Made by a program: the position numbers and the translations under genes. A stretch of 64,000 nucleotides of DNA from an uncultured archaeon (GTDB lineage Archaea; Thermoplasmatota; Thermoplasmata; Thermoplasmatales; Thermoplasmataceae): the NCBI GenBank assembly GCA_000965745.1, contig CP009479.1, forward strand, positions 1,002,457 through 1,066,456. The letters are read 5' to 3'. Under the pieces are notes generated by a model. That model ran no database searches. It was given only the letters and a program-made list of their open reading frames with translations, and was not told the origin of the DNA. Shown piece after piece: positions 9,778 to 63,606 of this stretch; position 1 is the first letter of the stretch; each line of letters opens with the position of its first letter.

Positions 9778-10161
9778 TCATTGGCTCGACTGGTACTCTT
9801 TTATGCATTTCTGAAGTGTGTTGAATGAAAGAAGGGCACATTTCTCCCTGCTGGGCCCGAGCTTAAGGCCAATCATGTCTATTACGCTCTCCTCGTCGAT
9901 CTCCTTTAGCTCTTCAAGGGACTTTCCCATGATCCTGTCTGTGAGCATTGATGCCGAGGCCTGGCTTATGGAGCAGCCTTTTCCAACAAATTTAACGTCC
10001 TTTACGGCCCCATCCTCTATCAGCAGGGAGATGTTGACGGTATCCCCGCATACTGGATTTGACTCTGTCATGGATACGGTGGCGTTTTCCAGAGTTCCAT
10101 AGTTATGGGGTTCCCTGTAGTGTTCCAAAACGATTTCAGCCTGCATATCGTTATCGCTCAT
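9778..10161 (-). CDS. sufU: SufU/IscU-type iron-sulfur scaffold protein
   Basis: A 127-residue scaffold or sulfur acceptor for cluster assembly. The three conserved cysteine regions are present: NPVCGDTV (about residue 38), GKGCSISQASAS (about 62) and REKCALLSF (about 107), with the Asp beside the first Cys. The insertion typical of zinc-dependent SufU (between the second and third sites) is represented by MGKSLEELKEIDEE. The ATG overlaps the sufS stop by 4 nt, so it is translated with sufS. Function in the cytosolic SUF machine is secure; whether it acts as a scaffold or a zinc sulfurtransferase is open. Confidence 0.92.
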   Translation of the reverse strand: MSDNDMQAEIVLEHYREPHNYGTLENATVSMTESNPVCGDTVNISLLIEDGAVKDVKFVGKGCSISQASASMLTDRIMGKSLEELKEIDEESVIDMIGLKLGPSREKCALLSFNTLQKCIKEYQSSQ

Positions 10162-11441
10162 CTTACGAACGCCTTCTGTACTTTTTTAAGGGCATCGAAG
10201 AGTGCATTCACGTCCTCCCTGGAGTTGTATATGTAGAATGATGCCCTCGAACTCGCCACAATCCCTAATTTATTATTTAAAGGCATGGCACAATGATGGC
10301 CTGACCTTATCGACAGGCCGTAGGAATCAAGGTCTGCTGCGACATCATGCGGATGTACGGCGCTGGTTTCAACGGACTCTACTGAGAGCTTCCTGTTTAG
10401 GTCAAGAGGGTGTATTTCCCCTATGTTGAAGGAGTACACGCCTCCCCTTTCCTGAACCTCCCTTGGTCCGTAGGAGACAAGATCCTTTATCCCGGATTCA
10501 ATTTCCTTCTGAAGGACATAGGAAACCAGCTCCATTTCGTGACGGCGGACATTCTCCATTCCGAGGCCCCTGAGGAAATCCACTGCTGCTGAAAGACCTA
10601 TAGCACCTTCAATATTGGGGGTGCCAGCTTCAAATTTCAATGGAGTATCATTCCAGGTTGATTCCTCAAGGCTTACCTCCCTGATCATCTCGCCCCCTCC
10701 CATGAAGGGGTGGAGGCTGTCAAGAAGGTCGAATTTTCCGTAAAGTACGCCTATGCCGGACGGGCCGAGCATTTTATGGCCTGAAAATGCCATGAAATCA
10801 CAGCCTATGTCTTCCACATCAACTGGCATGTGCGGGACGCTCTGAGCCCCATCAACTATGAATACCGACCCGTTCTCATGGGCGATTCGCCCAATCTCCT
10901 TAACGGGGTTGATAGTTCCAAGCAGGTTTGAAACGTGTGTCAGGGAAACTATCTTTGTCCTCTTGCTTATTTTGCTCTTCAGGTCCTCAAGATCCAGATT
11001 TCCATCCGAACCGATATCCACAAATTTGAGTCTGACTCCTTTTTCCTTCAGGAACTGCCATGGCACGATATTGGAATGGTGCTCCATCACCGAAAGGAGA
11101 ATCTCGTCTCCCTCTGTCAGGGACCTACCCAGTGTGTACGAAAGAAAATTCAGCGCTTCTGTGGCATTTCTCACAAAAACGATCTGCCTGCTGTCCTTAG
11201 AACCTATGAAATGTGACACGTTCTCCCTGGAGGCGTCATAAAGTTCCGTAGCTTCCTCACTTATTGTATAGATTCCCCTGTGGACGTTGCTGTTTGAATT
11301 GTAATAATAATCAACTATGGCATCTACAACCTCGACCGGTTTCTGTGTGGTTGCAGCACTATCAAGATAAACCAGTCTGTTGCCTTTTATTTCTCTGTTA
11401 AAAATGGGAAAATGTGATTTTATTTCTTCAGGGTTAATCAT
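10158..11441 (-). CDS. sufS: cysteine desulfurase SufS
   Basis: A 427-residue class V, PLP-dependent enzyme that takes sulfur from L-cysteine as a protein persulfide for cluster assembly. Visible: LDSAATTQKP near the start, RNATEALN, EHHSNIVPW with the PLP-stacking His, DGAQSVPH with the PLP Asp, the Schiff-base Lys in FSGHKMLGPSG, and the catalytic Cys in RSGHHCAMP, in the short-loop setting of group II (SufS) enzymes. ATG 11441 gives MINPEEIKSHFP; an ATG two codons upstream is possible. The start overlaps the sufD stop by 8 nt. Confidence 0.95.
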   Translation of the reverse strand: MINPEEIKSHFPIFNREIKGNRLVYLDSAATTQKPVEVVDAIVDYYYNSNSNVHRGIYTISEEATELYDASRENVSHFIGSKDSRQIVFVRNATEALNFLSYTLGRSLTEGDEILLSVMEHHSNIVPWQFLKEKGVRLKFVDIGSDGNLDLEDLKSKISKRTKIVSLTHVSNLLGTINPVKEIGRIAHENGSVFIVDGAQSVPHMPVDVEDIGCDFMAFSGHKMLGPSGIGVLYGKFDLLDSLHPFMGGGEMIREVSLEESTWNDTPLKFEAGTPNIEGAIGLSAAVDFLRGLGMENVRRHEMELVSYVLQKEIESGIKDLVSYGPREVQERGGVYSFNIGEIHPLDLNRKLSVESVETSAVHPHDVAADLDSYGLSIRSGHHCAMPLNNKLGIVASSRASFYIYNSREDVNALFDALKKVQKAFVR

Positions 11442-12675
11442 TCTCATCCAGGCTCTCAGCGTACTCATACACTTTTTGGGTAAAAAGATCACTCCTAGCC
11501 TTTTCTATAAGTGAAGCCACAAACCCTCCAGTTATGATCTTCTTCGCCTCGCCTGGCGGGATTCCTCTGGACCTCAGATACAATATCTGCTCATCATCCA
11601 CGTTGCTTATCGAAGAGCCATGCTTTGACCTGGTGTCATTATTCTTTATCATCAGCCCCGGTTTGGTGTTGGCATAACCCTGCTTTGAAAGTAGCAGTAT
11701 CTTCGAGTCATAGAAGCCCGTTGATTTCCTGGACATTTCCTCCATGTCAACATTTCCTCTGTGCATGGTGGAGCTTCCGCCCGTTACGACTCCTCTTACA
11801 TTTATGCCTGCGGTTGTTTCCGCCCCGACCTGGAAACTACTGTCCCTTATGTCCATCTTCTGTTGTTTCTCGGAGAAACTGACGCCGTATACTTTGAAGC
11901 TTGAGCCTTTGCCAGGCTGCTGAGATTCGTTTGTGAAAAGGACCTTGCTTGAGCCGTGATGGATGTGGTATATCTCAAACTCTGCATAATCGTCCTCAAA
12001 CGCCTTCACATGGGTGAGGTCCACAACGCTCTGGACATTGTCCTGAAGGTAGTTGTACTGGACTTTGCTGTTCTTTCCTAGGAAGAAATAGATATTCTTT
12101 CCATGGACACCATCACCTTTTCCGGTTGTGCTGTACGTATCCGTAAGGTTCAGCTTCGTATCGTCTTCCAGGATGATGACTGTCTTGAACGCAAATGAGG
12201 CGGTGGAGTCGAAGACCACTTCAGATTTCATCTCTATGCTTCCGGCCTTCCTTGGGATGTATATGAAAATCCCGTTCTGCCAGGAGGAGTTTATCAGATA
12301 TTCAGTCCTTTCATCCCCGAACTTCCCCTCCGTGTATTTGCTGAGAAGATCACTGTGCTCCGAGATCGCGGTTTTCATGTCGGTTACAATGACGCCTTTT
12401 TTCTCAAGCTCACTGTTCACGTGAAGACGGTCATTGTCCATCAGTATGTCCGTGTTTGGAGGGAACTTTATGGTTTCTGACTTCTCAGGGAGGGTAATTT
12501 CCCCGAAAATCATCCTTTCAAGCTCTTCGTCTGTGATTTCAACGTAGTCTTTTACTGTAGGGCTCTCCTTGTGGATTCTGATGGGGAGTTTGAGGTATTC
12601 CTTGAATGCCTCAACCCTGTAGTCGTACTGCTGATCGCTGAATTTAGTTTTGAGTGTTTCCGGATATTCTTCCAT
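11434..12675 (-). CDS. sufD: SufD subunit of the SufBCD complex
   Basis: A 413-residue protein of the SufB/SufD family. It shows the right-handed beta-helix core and the C-terminal helical part that holds SufC: the late string SKHGSSISNVDDEQILYLRSRG is the family's best conserved segment, with the His-Gly-Ser and LRSRG elements. It is related to the preceding sufB but lacks the extended N-terminal domain. It ends inside the sufS start and begins 6 nt after sufB, so the genes form one unit. Confidence 0.92.
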   Translation of the reverse strand: MEEYPETLKTKFSDQQYDYRVEAFKEYLKLPIRIHKESPTVKDYVEITDEELERMIFGEITLPEKSETIKFPPNTDILMDNDRLHVNSELEKKGVIVTDMKTAISEHSDLLSKYTEGKFGDERTEYLINSSWQNGIFIYIPRKAGSIEMKSEVVFDSTASFAFKTVIILEDDTKLNLTDTYSTTGKGDGVHGKNIYFFLGKNSKVQYNYLQDNVQSVVDLTHVKAFEDDYAEFEIYHIHHGSSKVLFTNESQQPGKGSSFKVYGVSFSEKQQKMDIRDSSFQVGAETTAGINVRGVVTGGSSTMHRGNVDMEEMSRKSTGFYDSKILLLSKQGYANTKPGLMIKNNDTRSKHGSSISNVDDEQILYLRSRGIPPGEAKKIITGGFVASLIEKARSDLFTQKVYEYAESLDEND

Positions 12676-12681
12676 GTCCGA

Positions 12682-14124
12682 TCATCCTTGTGCGCCGAGT
12701 TTGCCCATTTCAAGTTTTATGAGTCTGTTCATCTCGATGGCAAATTCCATCGGGATCTCCTTCATGACATCATCGAGGAAACCAAGGACTATCATTGAGC
12801 TTGCCTCATCCTCACTGAGGCCTCTTGACCTCAGGTAATGAAGCTCGTCAGTACCTATCTTTCCAACAGATGCTTCATGGCCGAATGTTGCAGTTGGCTC
12901 ATAAACTTCATCGTGCGGAAATGTGTATGATGTTGACTCATCATTTATCAGAAGGGCATCACACTGCACGTGGCTCTTGGAGTGCTCTGCCCCCTTGTTC
13001 ATCCTCAGGAGCCCTCTGTATATTGCCTTCCCATCCTCTATGCTGATGCTCTTGGCAACTATTCTTGAATTCGTGTAAGGGGCGAGGTGAATTGCTTTTG
13101 CGCCAGTGTCTTTAACTGTGCCTGGACCCGCGAGTGATATGTTGAGGTTGCTCGTTGTCGCGTGCGGCCCTCTCAGGTATGAGGACGGGTAAAGCATCGT
13201 AACCTTTGAACCAAGTGAGCCTCCGACCCATTCCATTTTTGCATTCTCGTCCACCCATGCCCTCTTTGTAGGCATGTTGTAGACACTCTTGGACCAGTTC
13301 TGGACACTTGTGTATCTGGCTTCTGAGTTCTTCTTCGCGTAGATTTCCACTATGGCACTGTGGAGTGAATTCTTGTCGTACCTTGGGGCTGTGCATCCCT
13401 CTATGTAGTGGACTTTTGAACCCTCGTCTGCAACGACTATTGTGTGTTCAAACTGTCCGGTTGCCTCTCCGTTCATCCTGAAATAGGTCTGAAGGGGCAT
13501 GTCTATCTGCACTCCGGGAGGGACATACAGGAATGAACCTCCACTCCAGACTGCACCGTTGAGTGCTGCAAACTTGTTGTCAGAGAAAGGTACTGCCTTG
13601 CAGTAGTAGTCCTTCACAAGGTCCGGGTGCTCTTTTACAGCGGTATCAAGATCCATGAAAACGACTCCCTTGTCTTCCCATGTTTTCTTGAGATTGTGGT
13701 ATACACCTTCGCTGTCGTACTGGGCAACTGAGCCTGCGAGGTATTTCTGTTCCATTTCAGGAATTCCAAGCTTCTCGAACGTGTTTTTTATTTCATCTGG
13801 AACCTCATCCCAGTCCTGTGACTTGTTTTCATCGTATTTGTTGTAAAAAGAGGTGTTCTCCCAATCTATGCCTGAAAGATCAGGGCCCCATGTTGGGATG
13901 GGCTTTGACTCAAACACCTCAAGTGCCTTGAGCCTCATCCTCTTCATCCATTCAGGCTCTTTCTTGATCTCTGAAATCTCTTCAACAACTTGCTTATTCA
14001 GTCCAGCTCCCGTTGAATAAAGGGGCTTTAGTGAATCGTGAAACTCCCAGTCTGAGGATTTGACGCTCTTCAAATCTTCCAGAAGTTTCTCCATTTCTTC
14101 ATCTTTATTATACTCAACTTCCAT
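12682..14124 (-). CDS. sufB: SufB subunit of the SufBCD scaffold complex
   Basis: A 480-residue scaffold subunit on which clusters are built. Strong family signatures include VPPGVQIDMPLQTYFRMN, GCTAPRYDKNSLHSAIVEI, NWSKSVYNMPTKRA and, near the C-terminus, the GHEASVGKIGTDELHYLRSRGL block with the SufC-contact helices. The cysteine in EGCTAP corresponds to a conserved SufB position. The N-terminal part is full length. It lies between sufC (17 nt upstream) and sufD (6 nt downstream). Confidence 0.95.
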   Translation of the reverse strand: MEVEYNKDEEMEKLLEDLKSVKSSDWEFHDSLKPLYSTGAGLNKQVVEEISEIKKEPEWMKRMRLKALEVFESKPIPTWGPDLSGIDWENTSFYNKYDENKSQDWDEVPDEIKNTFEKLGIPEMEQKYLAGSVAQYDSEGVYHNLKKTWEDKGVVFMDLDTAVKEHPDLVKDYYCKAVPFSDNKFAALNGAVWSGGSFLYVPPGVQIDMPLQTYFRMNGEATGQFEHTIVVADEGSKVHYIEGCTAPRYDKNSLHSAIVEIYAKKNSEARYTSVQNWSKSVYNMPTKRAWVDENAKMEWVGGSLGSKVTMLYPSSYLRGPHATTSNLNISLAGPGTVKDTGAKAIHLAPYTNSRIVAKSISIEDGKAIYRGLLRMNKGAEHSKSHVQCDALLINDESTSYTFPHDEVYEPTATFGHEASVGKIGTDELHYLRSRGLSEDEASSMIVLGFLDDVMKEIPMEFAIEMNRLIKLEMGKLGAQG

Positions 14125-14141
14125 TCTTTACACCATCCTTA

Positions 14142-14879
14142 TTAGGCTTTAATCCAATCATACCCATCCTCCTCAATCCTGAGGGAAAGGGCCTTGTCAC
14201 CGTCTTTTATAATTTTCCCGCTCATCAGAATATGAACGAACTCAGGCTCTATGTCCTTGAGTATTCTCTGGTAGTGGGTGATTATCAGGAATCCGACGTC
14301 CTGGTTGTAGTATTTCTTGATTTCAGCTGCGACCAGCTTGAGGGCATCGACATCGAGGCCTGAGTCGATCTCGTCAAGGACTACGATCCTGGGCTTGAGC
14401 ATGACCATTTGCAGTATCTCTACTCTCTTACGCTCCCCTCCTGAGAAACCGTCGTTAACAGCTCTCTGGATAAACGACTCATCGAGCCCGAGATTTTTCA
14501 TATGCTCTTTCATTGTGTTGTAAAATTCCGTAATCTTGATCTTGTCTTCAGGGTGCACATTCTTGTACGCTGTTCTTATGAATGTTCCAAGCTTTACGCC
14601 AGCTACAGAAATAGGGCTCTGAAATGCAAGGAACAGCCCGGCTTTTGCTCTCTCTTCAGGGGTCTTGTCTGCGAGCTCTTTTCCGTCCAGTTTTACTGAA
14701 CCGCCCGTTATCTCATAGCTGGGATGCCCTATCAGGACATTTCCCAAGGTACTTTTGCCTGCTCCGTTTGGACCCATCAGAGCATGAATTTCTCCCCCTT
14801 TCACAGTAAGATTAACGCCGTTGAGAATCTGCTTGCCTTCAACCTTGGCTGAAAGATCTTTGATGACTAATTCTGACAT
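14142..14879 (-). CDS. sufC: SufC ATPase of the SufBCD complex
   Basis: A 245-residue soluble ABC-type ATPase that drives the SufB-SufD core. Walker A is GPNGAGKST at about residues 36-44, the Q-loop is LAFQSP, the signature is FSGGERKR and Walker B is VVLDEIDSGLD, the form with Glu followed by IDSGLD that is typical of SufC rather than of transporters. It is first in the operon. Its promoter (box A GTTTAAATATA, 14912-14922 minus strand) lies within a perfect inverted repeat that faces the divergent regulator gene. Confidence 0.96.
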   Translation of the reverse strand: MSELVIKDLSAKVEGKQILNGVNLTVKGGEIHALMGPNGAGKSTLGNVLIGHPSYEITGGSVKLDGKELADKTPEERAKAGLFLAFQSPISVAGVKLGTFIRTAYKNVHPEDKIKITEFYNTMKEHMKNLGLDESFIQRAVNDGFSGGERKRVEILQMVMLKPRIVVLDEIDSGLDVDALKLVAAEIKKYYNQDVGFLIITHYQRILKDIEPEFVHILMSGKIIKDGDKALSLRIEEDGYDWIKA

Positions 14880-14914
14880 CTGCTAATGCACCTACGTCAT
14901 GATGATTTCTCTAT

Positions 14915-14940
14915 ATTTAAACACTTTCTTATGTTTAAAT
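14915..14940. promoter_or_regulatory. perfect inverted repeat over the sufC promoter, candidate operator
   Basis: Arms ATTTAAACA (14915-14923) and TGTTTAAAT (14932-14940) are exact reverse complements, separated by 8 nt. The left arm coincides with the sufC box A, and the right arm lies 10 nt before the box A-like ATTTATAT (14951-14958) of the divergent regulator gene. A dimer bound here would block TBP at sufC and could also control the regulator. That the SufR-like protein binds it is inference. Confidence 0.6.
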
Positions 14941-14987
14941 TGACTAAATTATTTATATCTGGAATCATTACATGTTCTAGAGTACGT

Positions 14988-15665
14988 ATGATAGAAACAA
15001 AGGGCGGAGCTTTAGATGACATAGAATCCTTTATGGGCCCTGTAAAAGCCAACATTCTCCACGAGTTGAGTTACTCCGAGAAGAGTATGGCTGAACTTTC
15101 TCAAATCCTTCAGATTAACAAGAATGCTGTCAAGGAGCATATGGAAAATCTGGAGATGAAAGGGTATGTCAAGCCCTTCTTCAGGGGGAAAGGTGCAGGA
15201 AGGCCAAGCAAATATTATGAACTCACCGAGAAAGGCCTTTCACTGCTTCCCAAGAGATACATAAATCTCGCGACAATGCTGATAGATGAAGTTGAATCAG
15301 AATTCGGAAAAGACAAACTCAACATTGTATTCGGCAAAATAGCGGACAAGATTCTCATGAACGCTGGATGGAAGGTGGCTTCCGATTCAGAGACTATACC
15401 CAAGGAACAGAAGATTCAGCACCTGAGGGAATTTGTTTCGACTCTGAACGAACTCGGTTATTATGCAAGGCTTGAGATTACCGACGACACAGTCAGGATA
15501 ATCAGGCACAACTGTATTTTCTACGAACTTGCTAAGAACAACAACAGAATCATTTGCGGCTCACTCGGCTCGCAGCTTATTGACAAATCTATAAATGACG
15601 AATTCAAAATTAAGGAGAAATTTTCTGAAGGGGCAAACAAGTGCGTGGTCGAGGTCAGTATCTGA
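14988..15665 (+). CDS. SufR-like winged-helix regulator with putative Fe-S cysteines
   Basis: A 225-residue DNA-binding protein divergent from the suf operon. Residues 20-85 form a winged helix (KSMAELSQILQINKNAVKEH as recognition region, then a wing with GAGRPSKYYELTEKG). The C-terminal half carries cysteines at about 175 (RHNCIFYELA), 190 (RIICGS) and 219 (NKCVVEV). SufR-type regulators ligate a cluster with three cysteines in this region, so this protein may sense cluster supply and repress suf. ATG 14988 was chosen over far upstream in-frame codons because a box A lies about 33 nt before it. The function rests on context plus the Cys pattern. Confidence 0.75.
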   Translation: MIETKGGALDDIESFMGPVKANILHELSYSEKSMAELSQILQINKNAVKEHMENLEMKGYVKPFFRGKGAGRPSKYYELTEKGLSLLPKRYINLATMLIDEVESEFGKDKLNIVFGKIADKILMNAGWKVASDSETIPKEQKIQHLREFVSTLNELGYYARLEITDDTVRIIRHNCIFYELAKNNNRIICGSLGSQLIDKSINDEFKIKEKFSEGANKCVVEVSI

Positions 15666-17588: not shown

Positions 17589-18533
17589 CTAGGCGAGCTT
17601 AACTTTCAGATTCTGTATCATGTCCTTGACAGTTCTTTCGAGATCATACTCCGGCCTGAACCCCCAGTCCCTTTCAGCCAGGGTTGTGTCAAGGCTTGCT
17701 GGCCATGTTTCTGCAATCTCCTGCCTGTAGTCAGGCTCATATGAAACCTCAAGCCCCGGGACCTCTTTTCTTATCTCATTGTACAGCTCTTCAGGGGAAA
17801 AGGAATAGGACGCCACATTGTAGTCGGTGTGCCTGGTAAGATTTTTCAGGTCGGCTTCAGCAAGCTTGACAAGAGAAGATACTGCGTCTGGCATATACAT
17901 CATTGGAAGATACGCATCAGCTCTCAGAAAGCATTTGTAAGGTTCTCCCCTGACAGCATGGTAAAACATCTGCACCGAATAGTCTGTAGTCCCGGCAGTG
18001 GGCTCCCTTACATAACTCATGATCCCCGGGAATCTCAATCCCCTCACATCCAGGTCAAACTTTTCAAAATAATATTCACCAAGCATTTCTGTTGTTACTT
18101 TTGTTATGCCATACATTGTCCTGGGGCGTGTCACCGTTACAACCGGAACATTCTCCCTGGGTGTTTCCGGCCCGAACACGCCTATTGTGCTGGGAATCAC
18201 CACTCGAGACAGGCCCTTCTCGATCCCAGCCCTGAGAATGTTGTTTGTTCCCACGAGGTTAACATCAAATGCCTTGAAGGGCTTCTTTTCCCCTGTAGCT
18301 GAAAGGATTGCAGCAAGATGGTATACGGTATCAACGTCGTGTTCGTCAATTGCGTTCTCAATGGCTTCAAAGTCGGTCACATCAAGATCCAGGAACTCGA
18401 AATCCGATCCGTTTTCGCAACCAGCGGACACATCGCTGGATATGACATTGCTCTTCCCGTACTTCTTTGCCAGGTAAGGGACAAGTTCGCTGCCGATCTG
18501 ACCACATGCACCAGTTATGAGAATTTTCCGCAT
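17589..18533 (-). CDS. tdh: L-threonine 3-dehydrogenase, short-chain (epimerase-like) type
   Basis: A 314-residue NAD-dependent enzyme that oxidises L-threonine to 2-amino-3-ketobutyrate. It starts MRKILITGACGQIGSEL (NAD loop), has DVDTVYHLAAILSATGE, STIGVFGP and the catalytic Tyr-x3-Lys in TMYGITK. This is the extended-SDR type known structurally from Thermoplasma volcanium, not the zinc enzyme. The divergent neighbour encodes the ligase that uses its product, which makes the assignment firm. The 162-nt region between the two starts should hold both promoters. Confidence 0.93.
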   Translation of the reverse strand: MRKILITGACGQIGSELVPYLAKKYGKSNVISSDVSAGCENGSDFEFLDLDVTDFEAIENAIDEHDVDTVYHLAAILSATGEKKPFKAFDVNLVGTNNILRAGIEKGLSRVVIPSTIGVFGPETPRENVPVVTVTRPRTMYGITKVTTEMLGEYYFEKFDLDVRGLRFPGIMSYVREPTAGTTDYSVQMFYHAVRGEPYKCFLRADAYLPMMYMPDAVSSLVKLAEADLKNLTRHTDYNVASYSFSPEELYNEIRKEVPGLEVSYEPDYRQEIAETWPASLDTTLAERDWGFRPEYDLERTVKDMIQNLKVKLA

Positions 18534-18695
18534 ATTTGACCCGACGTAAAATCGTGTCTGAGATTAAAAGGTTATAGTGATCATGATCCACACACTGATC
18601 TTTTGCAGGATGGGTGGCCAAACCATTGGCAATCTTCGGGATAACATAATTATCGGATCATGAGTTGTTAGATCGGTGATTAGTTTTTGTCAAAA

Positions 18696-19871
18696 ATGGA
18701 CTGGGTGTCGAAGGAGATCAATTCGCTGAAGGAAGCCGGCAGGTATGTCCCAATAAGGGTGCTTGAAAGCGCCCAGGGTGCCTGGGTCAGCATTGAGAAG
18801 AAGAAAATGCTGAACATGTGCTCAAACAACTACCTTGGGCTGGCAAACAATGAAGAGGTGAAGAAGGCTGCAATCGAGGCAATAAAGGAATTTGGTGTCG
18901 GCGCAGGAGCGGTAAGATCTATTGCAGGCACCAACTCTGTCCACCTTGAGCTTGAAAAGAAGGTTGCACTGTTCAAGCACATGGGATCATCCCTCGTCTA
19001 CCAGGGAGGGCTTCTAGCCAACACGGGCACGATTCCATCAATTGTTGGGAAGGAGGACATCGTGTTCAGTGAGGAGCTGAATCATGCCAGCATAATAGAT
19101 GGTGTCCGCCTGTCCTCCGCAAAAAGGGCTGTTTTCAAGCACATGGACATGAAGGACCTTGAGAAACAGCTGAAGGAGCACAGGAATGAAGGAAAGAAAG
19201 CTCTCATTGTGACAGACGGGGTATTCAGCATGGACGGGGACATAGCGCCACTGCCTGAAATCGCAGAGCTCGGTGAAAAATACTCGGCGATGACATATGT
19301 TGATGATGCCCATGGTGAGGGAGTCCTCGGCTCCCACGGCAGGGGAATCGTGGACCACTTCAACCTTGCAGGAAAAGTCGACATAGAAATGGGAACTTTT
19401 TCCAAGGCAATCGGATCAATGGGCGGTTTCGTGGCCGGTGACGAGCAGTTTGTCGATCTGCTGAAACAGAGGGCAAGGCCGTTTCTGTTCAGCAGTGCCC
19501 TGAACGTGGGAGATGCGGCGGCGGTGTTGAAGTCCATAGAGATCCTGGAGAAGGACGATTCATTGGTGAAGAAACTATGGGATAATTCAGAATACCTCAA
19601 GAAATCACTCAATGACCTCGGCTTCAACACAGGAAGCAGCAAGACTCCGATTACACCTGTGATTGCAGGAGACGAGAAGAAAGTCGTTGGACTGAGCAGA
19701 GCGCTCTATTCAGAGGAGAATGTATTCGCGTCACCGATCGTCTACCCGACTGTCCCGATGGGAACTGCCCGAATAAGGCTGATGCCGTCCGCAGTGCATT
19801 CGAGGGAAGACCTTGATTACGCTGTAACAGCGTTTGAAAAACAGGGAAAGAAGCTCGGAATCCTGAAATGA
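18696..19871 (+). CDS. kbl: 2-amino-3-ketobutyrate CoA ligase (glycine C-acetyltransferase)
   Basis: A 391-residue PLP enzyme of the alpha-oxoamine synthase family that cleaves 2-amino-3-ketobutyrate with CoA into glycine and acetyl-CoA. Visible: [15 protein letters not shown], the substrate His in [20 protein letters not shown], and the PLP lysine in [16 protein letters not shown] 18696 is preferred to an in-frame TTG at 18687. With the divergent tdh it completes threonine degradation to glycine. A T-run follows the stop. Confidence 0.93.
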
Positions 19872-33968: not shown

Positions 33969-34052
33969 GTCGGGGTAGCCTAGCCTGGTAAGGCGATAGA
34001 CTCGAGATCTATTGCGCTTGTTCGCTCGGGAGTTCGAATCTCCCCCCCGGCG
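33969..34052 (+). tRNA. tRNA-Ser (CGA)
   Basis: 84 nt with acceptor GTCGGGG/CCCCGGC (one G-U), anticodon stem ATAGA/TCTAT with loop CTCGAGA (anticodon CGA), a long variable arm of 15 nt as in class II tRNAs, T arm GGGAG-TTCGAAT-CTCCC and discriminator G. CCA is not encoded and no intron is seen. It reads UCG codons. Confidence 0.95.
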
Positions 34053-34065
34053 CTTATGTTTGTAA

Positions 34066-34952: not shown

Positions 34953-35036
34953 GCTGGGATAGCCTAGCCTGGTAGGGCGCAGGTCTGGAAAACCTGTTCT
35001 CTCACGAGATCGGGAGTTCAAATCTCCCTCCCAGCG
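34953..35036 (+). tRNA. tRNA-Ser (GGA)
   Basis: 84 nt; acceptor GCTGGGA/TCCCAGC, anticodon stem CAGGT/ACCTG with loop CTGGAAA (anticodon GGA), 15-nt variable arm, T arm GGGAG-TTCAAAT-CTCCC, discriminator G, no CCA. It reads UCC and UCU. The D arm is almost the same as in tRNA-Ser(CGA) 0.9 kb upstream, which suggests common descent. Confidence 0.95.
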
Positions 35037-35266
35037 CTACTTCAGGGTCTTGTTCTCGAGTTTTACCTCCACCAAGGTTCGCCTCATGATTAGTGCGGTT
35101 AAAGAGGAATTATATAGGGGATCTAAAATGAAGTTCTCGGAACATTTCCCATACTTTTTAAACAAAAATTGAGCAGGAAATACCCTTCCGAAACGGAGGA
35201 GATGATGTCACTTTGCCGATCCGGTTCCGGGATTTGCTGCTGTCTTACGGCCTAACCCAATGCTGA

Positions 35267-63150: not shown

Positions 63151-63523
63151 TCGGTCATGTGCAAAATCACTGTAAGGTTATAATGGTAAAAATATTGGTA
63201 CACTGGTGAACAGGCCAAACTATGGTGATGTGATCATTCGATATAGGGAAAAGAGGCACAAGGTTGAGTACTAAAACGATCACTGGATGATGATAGGCGG
63301 AATGAATGTAGGATCACACTGCAACATTGATATGGGAGAAGGAGTCAAAAAGAAGAAATTTATGTTGACACATAGGTAAAAAGCGACCTTGTAGCCTTCT
63401 GCCGGATCTTCTGATCCTTTGCCGAACCGTCTCAAGCAACCGAGGAGCGATGAGATTTCACGATTTTTCAGGAAACTTTGAGATAGGTAAATGAAAATAG
63501 CCCAAATTTGCACAATCAAGTAA
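63151..63523. other. intergenic region with short non-conserved ORFs
   Basis: About 370 bases. Plus-strand frames give brief coding-like strings (VNRPNYGDVIIRYREK and, from an ATG near 63287, a 30-codon ORF with IGGMNVGSHCNIDMGEG), none long or recognisable. They may be further debris. No RNA gene was seen before the tRNA. Confidence 0.35.
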
Positions 63524-63603
63524 CGCCGGGGGAGAGATTCGAACTCCCGATCCACAAGGGAACCAGATCTCAAGTCTGGCGCGTACCACTGGGCCACCCC
63601 GGC
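63524..63603 (-). tRNA. tRNA-Ser (UGA)
   Basis: 80 nt on the minus strand; acceptor GCCGGGG/CCCCGGC, anticodon stem CCAGA/TCTGG with loop CTTGAGA (anticodon TGA), variable arm of 14 nt with a short TCC/GGA stem, T arm GGGAG-TTCGAAT-CTCTC (one G-U), discriminator G, no CCA. The D arm is shorter than in the other two tRNA-Ser genes here and has one mismatch. It reads UCA and probably other UCN codons. Confidence 0.9.
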
Positions 63604-63606
63604 ACC

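Follow-up and report, generated by a model that had tools for sequence, protein, structure and literature searches.

An exact 9-8-9 inverted repeat, lying between the suf operon (sufCBDSU) and a divergent gene for a SufR-like winged-helix regulator, is a conserved operator to which that regulator is predicted to bind (Table 1). The site is quite probably the operator of an Fe-S regulator that would repress suf by a block of TBP/TFB. Leftward from the gap the gene order is sufC, sufB, sufD-like, sufS and sufU, the true start of sufS probably being internal to its ORF, and rightward stands the regulator. The ORF list gives the regulator start as 14886; because of conservation and the position of the TATA box we put the real start at 14988, which yields a protein of 225 aa.

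Table 1. Features of the suf operon, the divergent regulator and the gap between them; positions are those of the window, which is the whole stretch of 64,000 nucleotides that was analysed.
Feature	Position	Strand	Basis or remark
sufU / NifU-N type protein	9778..10161	-	TIGR01994, 113 bits
sufS cysteine desulfurase	10158..11492	-	TIGR01979, 547 bits
sufD-like, second SufBD-core protein	11434..12675	-	PF01458; TIGR01981 187.5 bits, cutoff 222
sufB	12682..14124	-	TIGR01980, 716 bits
sufC	14142..14879	-	TIGR01978, 328.7 bits
Shine-Dalgarno-like AGGTG of sufC	14889..14893	-	sequence; pattern across 68 loci
sufC TATA box TTTAAATA	14914..14921	-	overlaps left arm; TATA-ATG 34 nt here
Putative operator ATTTAAACA-CTTTCTTA-TGTTTAAAT	14915..14940	.	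genome scans and conservation across loci
Left operator arm ATTTAAACA	14915..14923		exact inverted repeat of right arm
Conserved core TTTAARCA-N8-TGYYTAAA	14916..14939		
Spacer CTTTCTTA	14924..14931		
sufC BRE GAAAG, probable	14924..14928	-	within spacer; s2-s4 1.1-1.2 bits; BRE function predicted
Right operator arm TGTTTAAAT	14932..14940	+	conserved; part of neither core promoter
TGACTAAA, probable BRE of regulator promoter	14941..14948	+	function predicted
Regulator TATA box TATTTATA	14950..14957	+	sequence and conservation
SufR-like winged-helix regulator, 225 aa	14988..15665	+	CX13CX28C; PF01022, TIGR02702
Regulator cysteine codons	15513-15515 (C176), 15555-15557 (C190), 15642-15644 (C219)	+	

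The inverted repeat and its conservation

The perfect repeat described in the sequence-only reading is indeed exact in both arms and is the only such site in the genome: it was the sole match within the window (0 in 100 shuffles), and in pattern searches of the 2.23 Mb genome the next-best matches already had 3 mismatches, which is the control level. No additional site that would widen the regulon was found in the source genome, two 3-mismatch matches (L002, L003) adjoining unrelated genes. By sequence, the bare repeat is only moderately unlikely, since an arm of at least 9 with a gap of at most 20 arises in 0.7% of shuffles of the AT-rich 108-bp gap, and an arm of 9 or more was reached in 8 of 1184 sampled 108-bp windows. 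The case for the site therefore comes from its conservation and not from the repeat as such. An RNA hairpin or terminator is ruled out, because the site lies between divergent genes and upstream of both predicted start sites.

Homologs of the regulator are present in 91 of the 117 genomes of the order. The gene is divergent from sufC in family f1, in the fetched loci that include neighbouring DNA, and also in f5. Within the same class this holds for f7 as well, at six of its eight loci, and in a genome of another class (G117) the gene adjoins sufB/sufC. The gaps share the block TATTTAAACAcTTTcttaTGTyTAAAnTgACTAAAgTATAwATA. Over 68 distinct loci, which share descent so that counts are not independent, the left arm carries 1.4-2.3 bits and the right arm 1.2-2.2 bits (R1, R2, R3 and R5-R8) except at R4 (0.52 bits); the outer flanks hold about 0-0.3 bits, which indicates that there has been time enough for positions free of constraint to become random. 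Symmetric positions 1, 4, 6, 7 and 8 are complementary in 63-68 of the 68 sites, and in some f7 sites both arms are altered, e.g. TTTAAGCA-TGGCGTTG-TGCTTAAA (L185), with the symmetry and the 8-bp spacer kept.

Sites with at most one mismatch occur in 67 of 77 f1 genomes and 15 of 15 f5 genomes, almost always singly in each genome, at a distance of some 60-110 bp from the match to the regulator, and the f1 genomes that lack one are mostly incomplete assemblies or belong to genera g7 and g11. In these two genera the right arm is partly decayed (TGTTTTTA, TGTTTTTT, TGATTTTA), TG always and TGT mostly being retained, and this erosion counts against our favoured reading. Two other families of this order, f2 and f3, possess sufC and lack the regulator, save for one weak f2 match (E=2.8e-6); no such site was found upstream of sufC in either family, and the lone one-mismatch match within them (G007) lies elsewhere, not at sufC. 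Relatives that retain the regulator thus keep the repeat, as the sequence-only reading required; they comprise two families within the order, a further family in the class and one genome from a different class. The exact pattern TTTAARCA-N8-TGYYTAAA was detected in 26 of 294 genomes spread over the phylum, and suf genes adjoin it in all 26 (23 at the sufC/regulator gap, 3 before sufT). Near the sufC TATA box of f3 loci without the regulator (L093-L102) there is another conserved element (TGGACA-AATC-TGTCCA in L093, for example), possibly the operator of another regulator.

sufT as a probable second target

In relatives the repeat was found at sufC and, as an extra copy, before another Fe-S assembly gene, sufT. 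This further copy stands directly before sufT in seven g5 genomes, including Ferroplasma acidarmanus, and in three g2 genomes, with identical 8-bp spacing and different spacer letters; its downstream arm is the TATA box TGTTTAAATA, and the ATG follows about 22-24 nt further on. In g15, the regulator gene is immediately followed by sufT. We take g5 and g2 to be Ferroplasma/Acidiplasma-type genomes and g15 to be probably Thermoplasma (T. acidophilum, T. volcanium). The sufT gene of the source genome (L166) has neither the site nor a position behind the regulator gene. The product of sufT is an Fe-S assembly protein of the PF01883/TIGR02945 type (TIGR02945 106.6 bits, below the cutoff of 143.4; PF01883 well above cutoff), and SufT is an auxiliary Fe-S maturation factor that is frequently suf-linked (PMC8593673). 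That sufT is reached by two different routes suggests that the regulon is Fe-S assembly. On balance, we think it likely that an archaeal branch of SufR-like Fe-S sensors spans the phylum Thermoplasmatota, with its own operator TTTAARCA-N8-TGYYTAAA over the TATA box and a small regulon rewired to include sufT, which would have come in at least once through the gain of an operator and once through entry into the regulator's gene cluster.

In nearly all f1 genomes a TATA-binding-protein gene then follows sufT (L103:2077-2996, L110:2134-3109, L114, L166), and the order in g15 is regulator-sufT-TBP, such that the site might there also touch TBP expression.

The regulator and its relation to SufR

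The divergent gene had been read as encoding a winged-helix protein with three C-terminal cysteines, and both features stand: an N-terminal ArsR/DeoR-type winged helix matches PF01022 (24.6 bits, cutoff 22), and the protein has exactly three cysteines, C176, C190 and C219. The triad is present in every regulator adjoining suf, usually as the sole cysteines in f1, and its spacing is CX13CX28-29C in nearly all, the exceptions being CX12CX24C (L116) and CX13CX31C (L180). In the AlphaFold model the winged helix is predicted with pLDDT >90 and the C-terminal domain with low confidence (pLDDT 50-80; pTM 0.49). Comparison of the model with the PDB gave no global match, the neighbours being general winged-helix regulators with Pyrococcus Phr (2p4w) first.

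The best NCBIfam match of the regulator is SufR (TIGR02702; 35.3 bits, 9e-9), below the family cutoff of 178.8, and its relatives score 37-50 bits against the same model. As is expected of SufR, the gene is adjacent to and divergent from the suf operon. The exact CX12CX27C spacing of M. tuberculosis (203/216/244) is not found in the suf-linked regulator, and the regulator/sufC gap contains neither CAAC nor GTTG of the SufR operator consensus CAAC-N6-GTTG (PMC8593673). The protein would act like SufR, yet it is not a strict member of the bacterial SufR family; since HMM cutoff, cysteine spacing and operator sequence all differ, it is best called a SufR-like archaeal branch.

The same operator and regulator could also form a system in which the three cysteines hold no Fe-S cluster and instead respond to a metal (Zn, Fe) or to oxidation of thiols. 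ArsR/MarR-type relatives in archaea do employ thiols or metals, the structural neighbours are ordinary winged-helix proteins and the C-terminal fold is not confidently predicted. Metal or thiol sensing is nevertheless unlikely, given that the targets are Fe-S assembly genes only, that the best family match is SufR and that the triad differs in spacing by one residue from that in M. tuberculosis SufR, a protein that binds a cluster and needs its cysteines (PMC6034842).

The same genome encodes a second SufR-like regulator (L131:1932-2564, minus strand; G000:C1 near 847,430-848,064), which has the canonical CX12CX27C spacing and a higher TIGR02702 score (123.7 bits) than the suf-linked protein; no suf gene was found near it. 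Other genera, too, have similar paralogs (L132, which adjoins a Rieske-type ferredoxin-like ORF, and L133).

Promoter architecture and proposed mechanism

The assignment of the left arm to the sufC box A agrees with the ATG spacing and the Shine-Dalgarno pattern across the 68 loci. Counted from the last base of TTTAAATA, the sufC ATG is mostly 20-24 nt away where a Shine-Dalgarno sequence is absent (leaderless spacing) and about 32-36 nt away in loci with AGGTG, the Shine-Dalgarno sequence being present in 0 of 39 loci with spacing of 28 nt or less versus 17 of 29 loci with longer spacing. From this pattern we locate the TATA box within the left arm and the BRE within the spacer, whose positions s2-s4 show conservation that is asymmetric to the repeat (CTTT conserved). 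The predicted overlap of operator and TATA box at sufC is thereby well supported, and at both sufC and sufT the site overlaps the BRE/TATA of the target promoter. We reject the reading that the right arm provides the regulator gene with an additional, upstream TATA box, since that gene has its TATA box at 14950-14957 and R4 is C in 26 of the 68 sites. The conserved TGACTAAA next to the right arm, 9 bp on from the start of that arm, looks like one more half-site (TGTCTAAA), which would be the third, and this likeness may simply reflect the BRE of the regulator promoter.

By analogy with cyanobacterial and mycobacterial SufR (PMC6034842, PMC8593673, PMC13421787), we infer DNA binding, dimerisation, cluster type and direction of control, as well as Fe-S sensing and TBP/TFB exclusion. 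A regulator dimer would bind both TTTAAACA half-sites. Because the left half coincides with the sufC TATA box, and the spacer with the BRE, the bound dimer would block TBP/TFB and shut the sufCBDSU operon. The right half, abutting the BRE/TATA of the regulator promoter, would provide autoregulation. The C-terminal triad most likely holds an Fe-S cluster, such that the cluster-loaded regulator would bind and repress as long as clusters abound, and the apo form would let go of the DNA once they become scarce or damaged.

Seen from the regulator gene, the operator is upstream of the BRE, with the right arm just upstream of BRE/TATA, and this position would also suit activation, as in a dual regulator that represses suf and activates its own gene in the manner of TBP/TFB-recruiting archaeal activators. 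Such a dual role seems improbable, as it would be hard to see in g15, where sufT stands behind the regulator gene, why suf and sufT should be controlled in opposite directions, and cyanobacterial SufR represses itself (PMC6034842, PMC13421787). It is still less probable that a DNA-binding protein other than the divergent regulator uses the site: binding by the regulator is a prediction and the genome has a SufR-like paralog (L131), but the occurrence of the site tracks the divergent regulator across families, and among the examined paralog loci none lies beside suf. A chance symmetry of two AT-rich core-promoter elements, one of them the TATA box in the left arm, has next to no probability and is refuted by the comparative data, the 0.7% of shuffles being indecisive alone, since the right arm has no part in either promoter, frequently reads TGTCTAAA, which is no TATA box, is conserved with its 8-bp spacer across two classes and is absent where the regulator is absent.

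Comparison with known systems

The proposed Fe-S-responsive repressor resembles cyanobacterial SufR (Synechocystis sll0088; TIGR02702) in its ArsR/DeoR-type winged helix, its C-terminal cysteines, a gene divergent from the suf operon, an operator in the common gap and a suggested autoregulation. It differs in its score (35.3 bits against the cutoff of 178.8), its CX13CX28C spacing and its operator (TTTAARCA-N8-TGYYTAAA versus CAAC-N6-GTTG), and on the archaeal side there are a TATA/BRE promoter, sufC as the first gene and, in some genera, sufT in the regulon. Actinobacterial SufR (M. tuberculosis Rv1460, S. avermitilis) is likewise dedicated to suf and has a near-equal triad spacing (CX12CX27C), unlike the archaeal system in that its gene is the first of the suf operon, not divergent, with a bacterial promoter; in Rv1460 the matching triad is required for function and a cluster binds (PMC6034842). 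Regulators of isc/suf of the IscR/RisR type share the homeostatic control of Fe-S assembly. They belong to the Rrf2 family and are unrelated to the winged-helix SufR-like protein. Phr of Pyrococcus (2p4w), the best PDB match, shares the winged-helix domain with the regulator, as do other archaeal winged-helix repressors that block TBP/TFB. The Phr operator lies over the core promoter. Phr differs in its heat-shock regulon and is not known to have an equivalent of the cysteine triad.

Control of Fe-S cluster assembly in archaea is little known, and SufR has been described from bacteria alone: one paper limits it to Cyanobacteria and some Actinobacteria (PMC8593673), and another states that it has been linked with Fe-S assembly "but not in Archaea" (PMC11218638). 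In the searchable literature we found no account of an archaeal SufR-type regulator, earlier mention in subscription journals being possible; this fits the suggestion of the sequence-only reading that Fe-S-sensing control of SUF was undescribed in Thermoplasmatales. The candidate system comprises a defined 26-bp site, a 225-aa protein and a regulon of two to three promoters, is found in iron-rich, acid-loving archaea, including Ferroplasma acidarmanus, and is small enough to test with one protein and one short DNA. If true, it would be a bacterial-type Fe-S sensor logic fitted to a TBP/TFB promoter, a feedback control hitherto undescribed in archaea.

Elsewhere in the window, an epimerase-type dehydrogenase and a divergent aminotransferase-fold gene (KBL-like) at 17589-19871 look like a threonine dehydrogenase / 2-amino-3-ketobutyrate ligase pair, and three tRNA-Ser genes (33969-34053, 34953-35037 and 63523-63604) carry the anticodons CGA, GGA and TGA.
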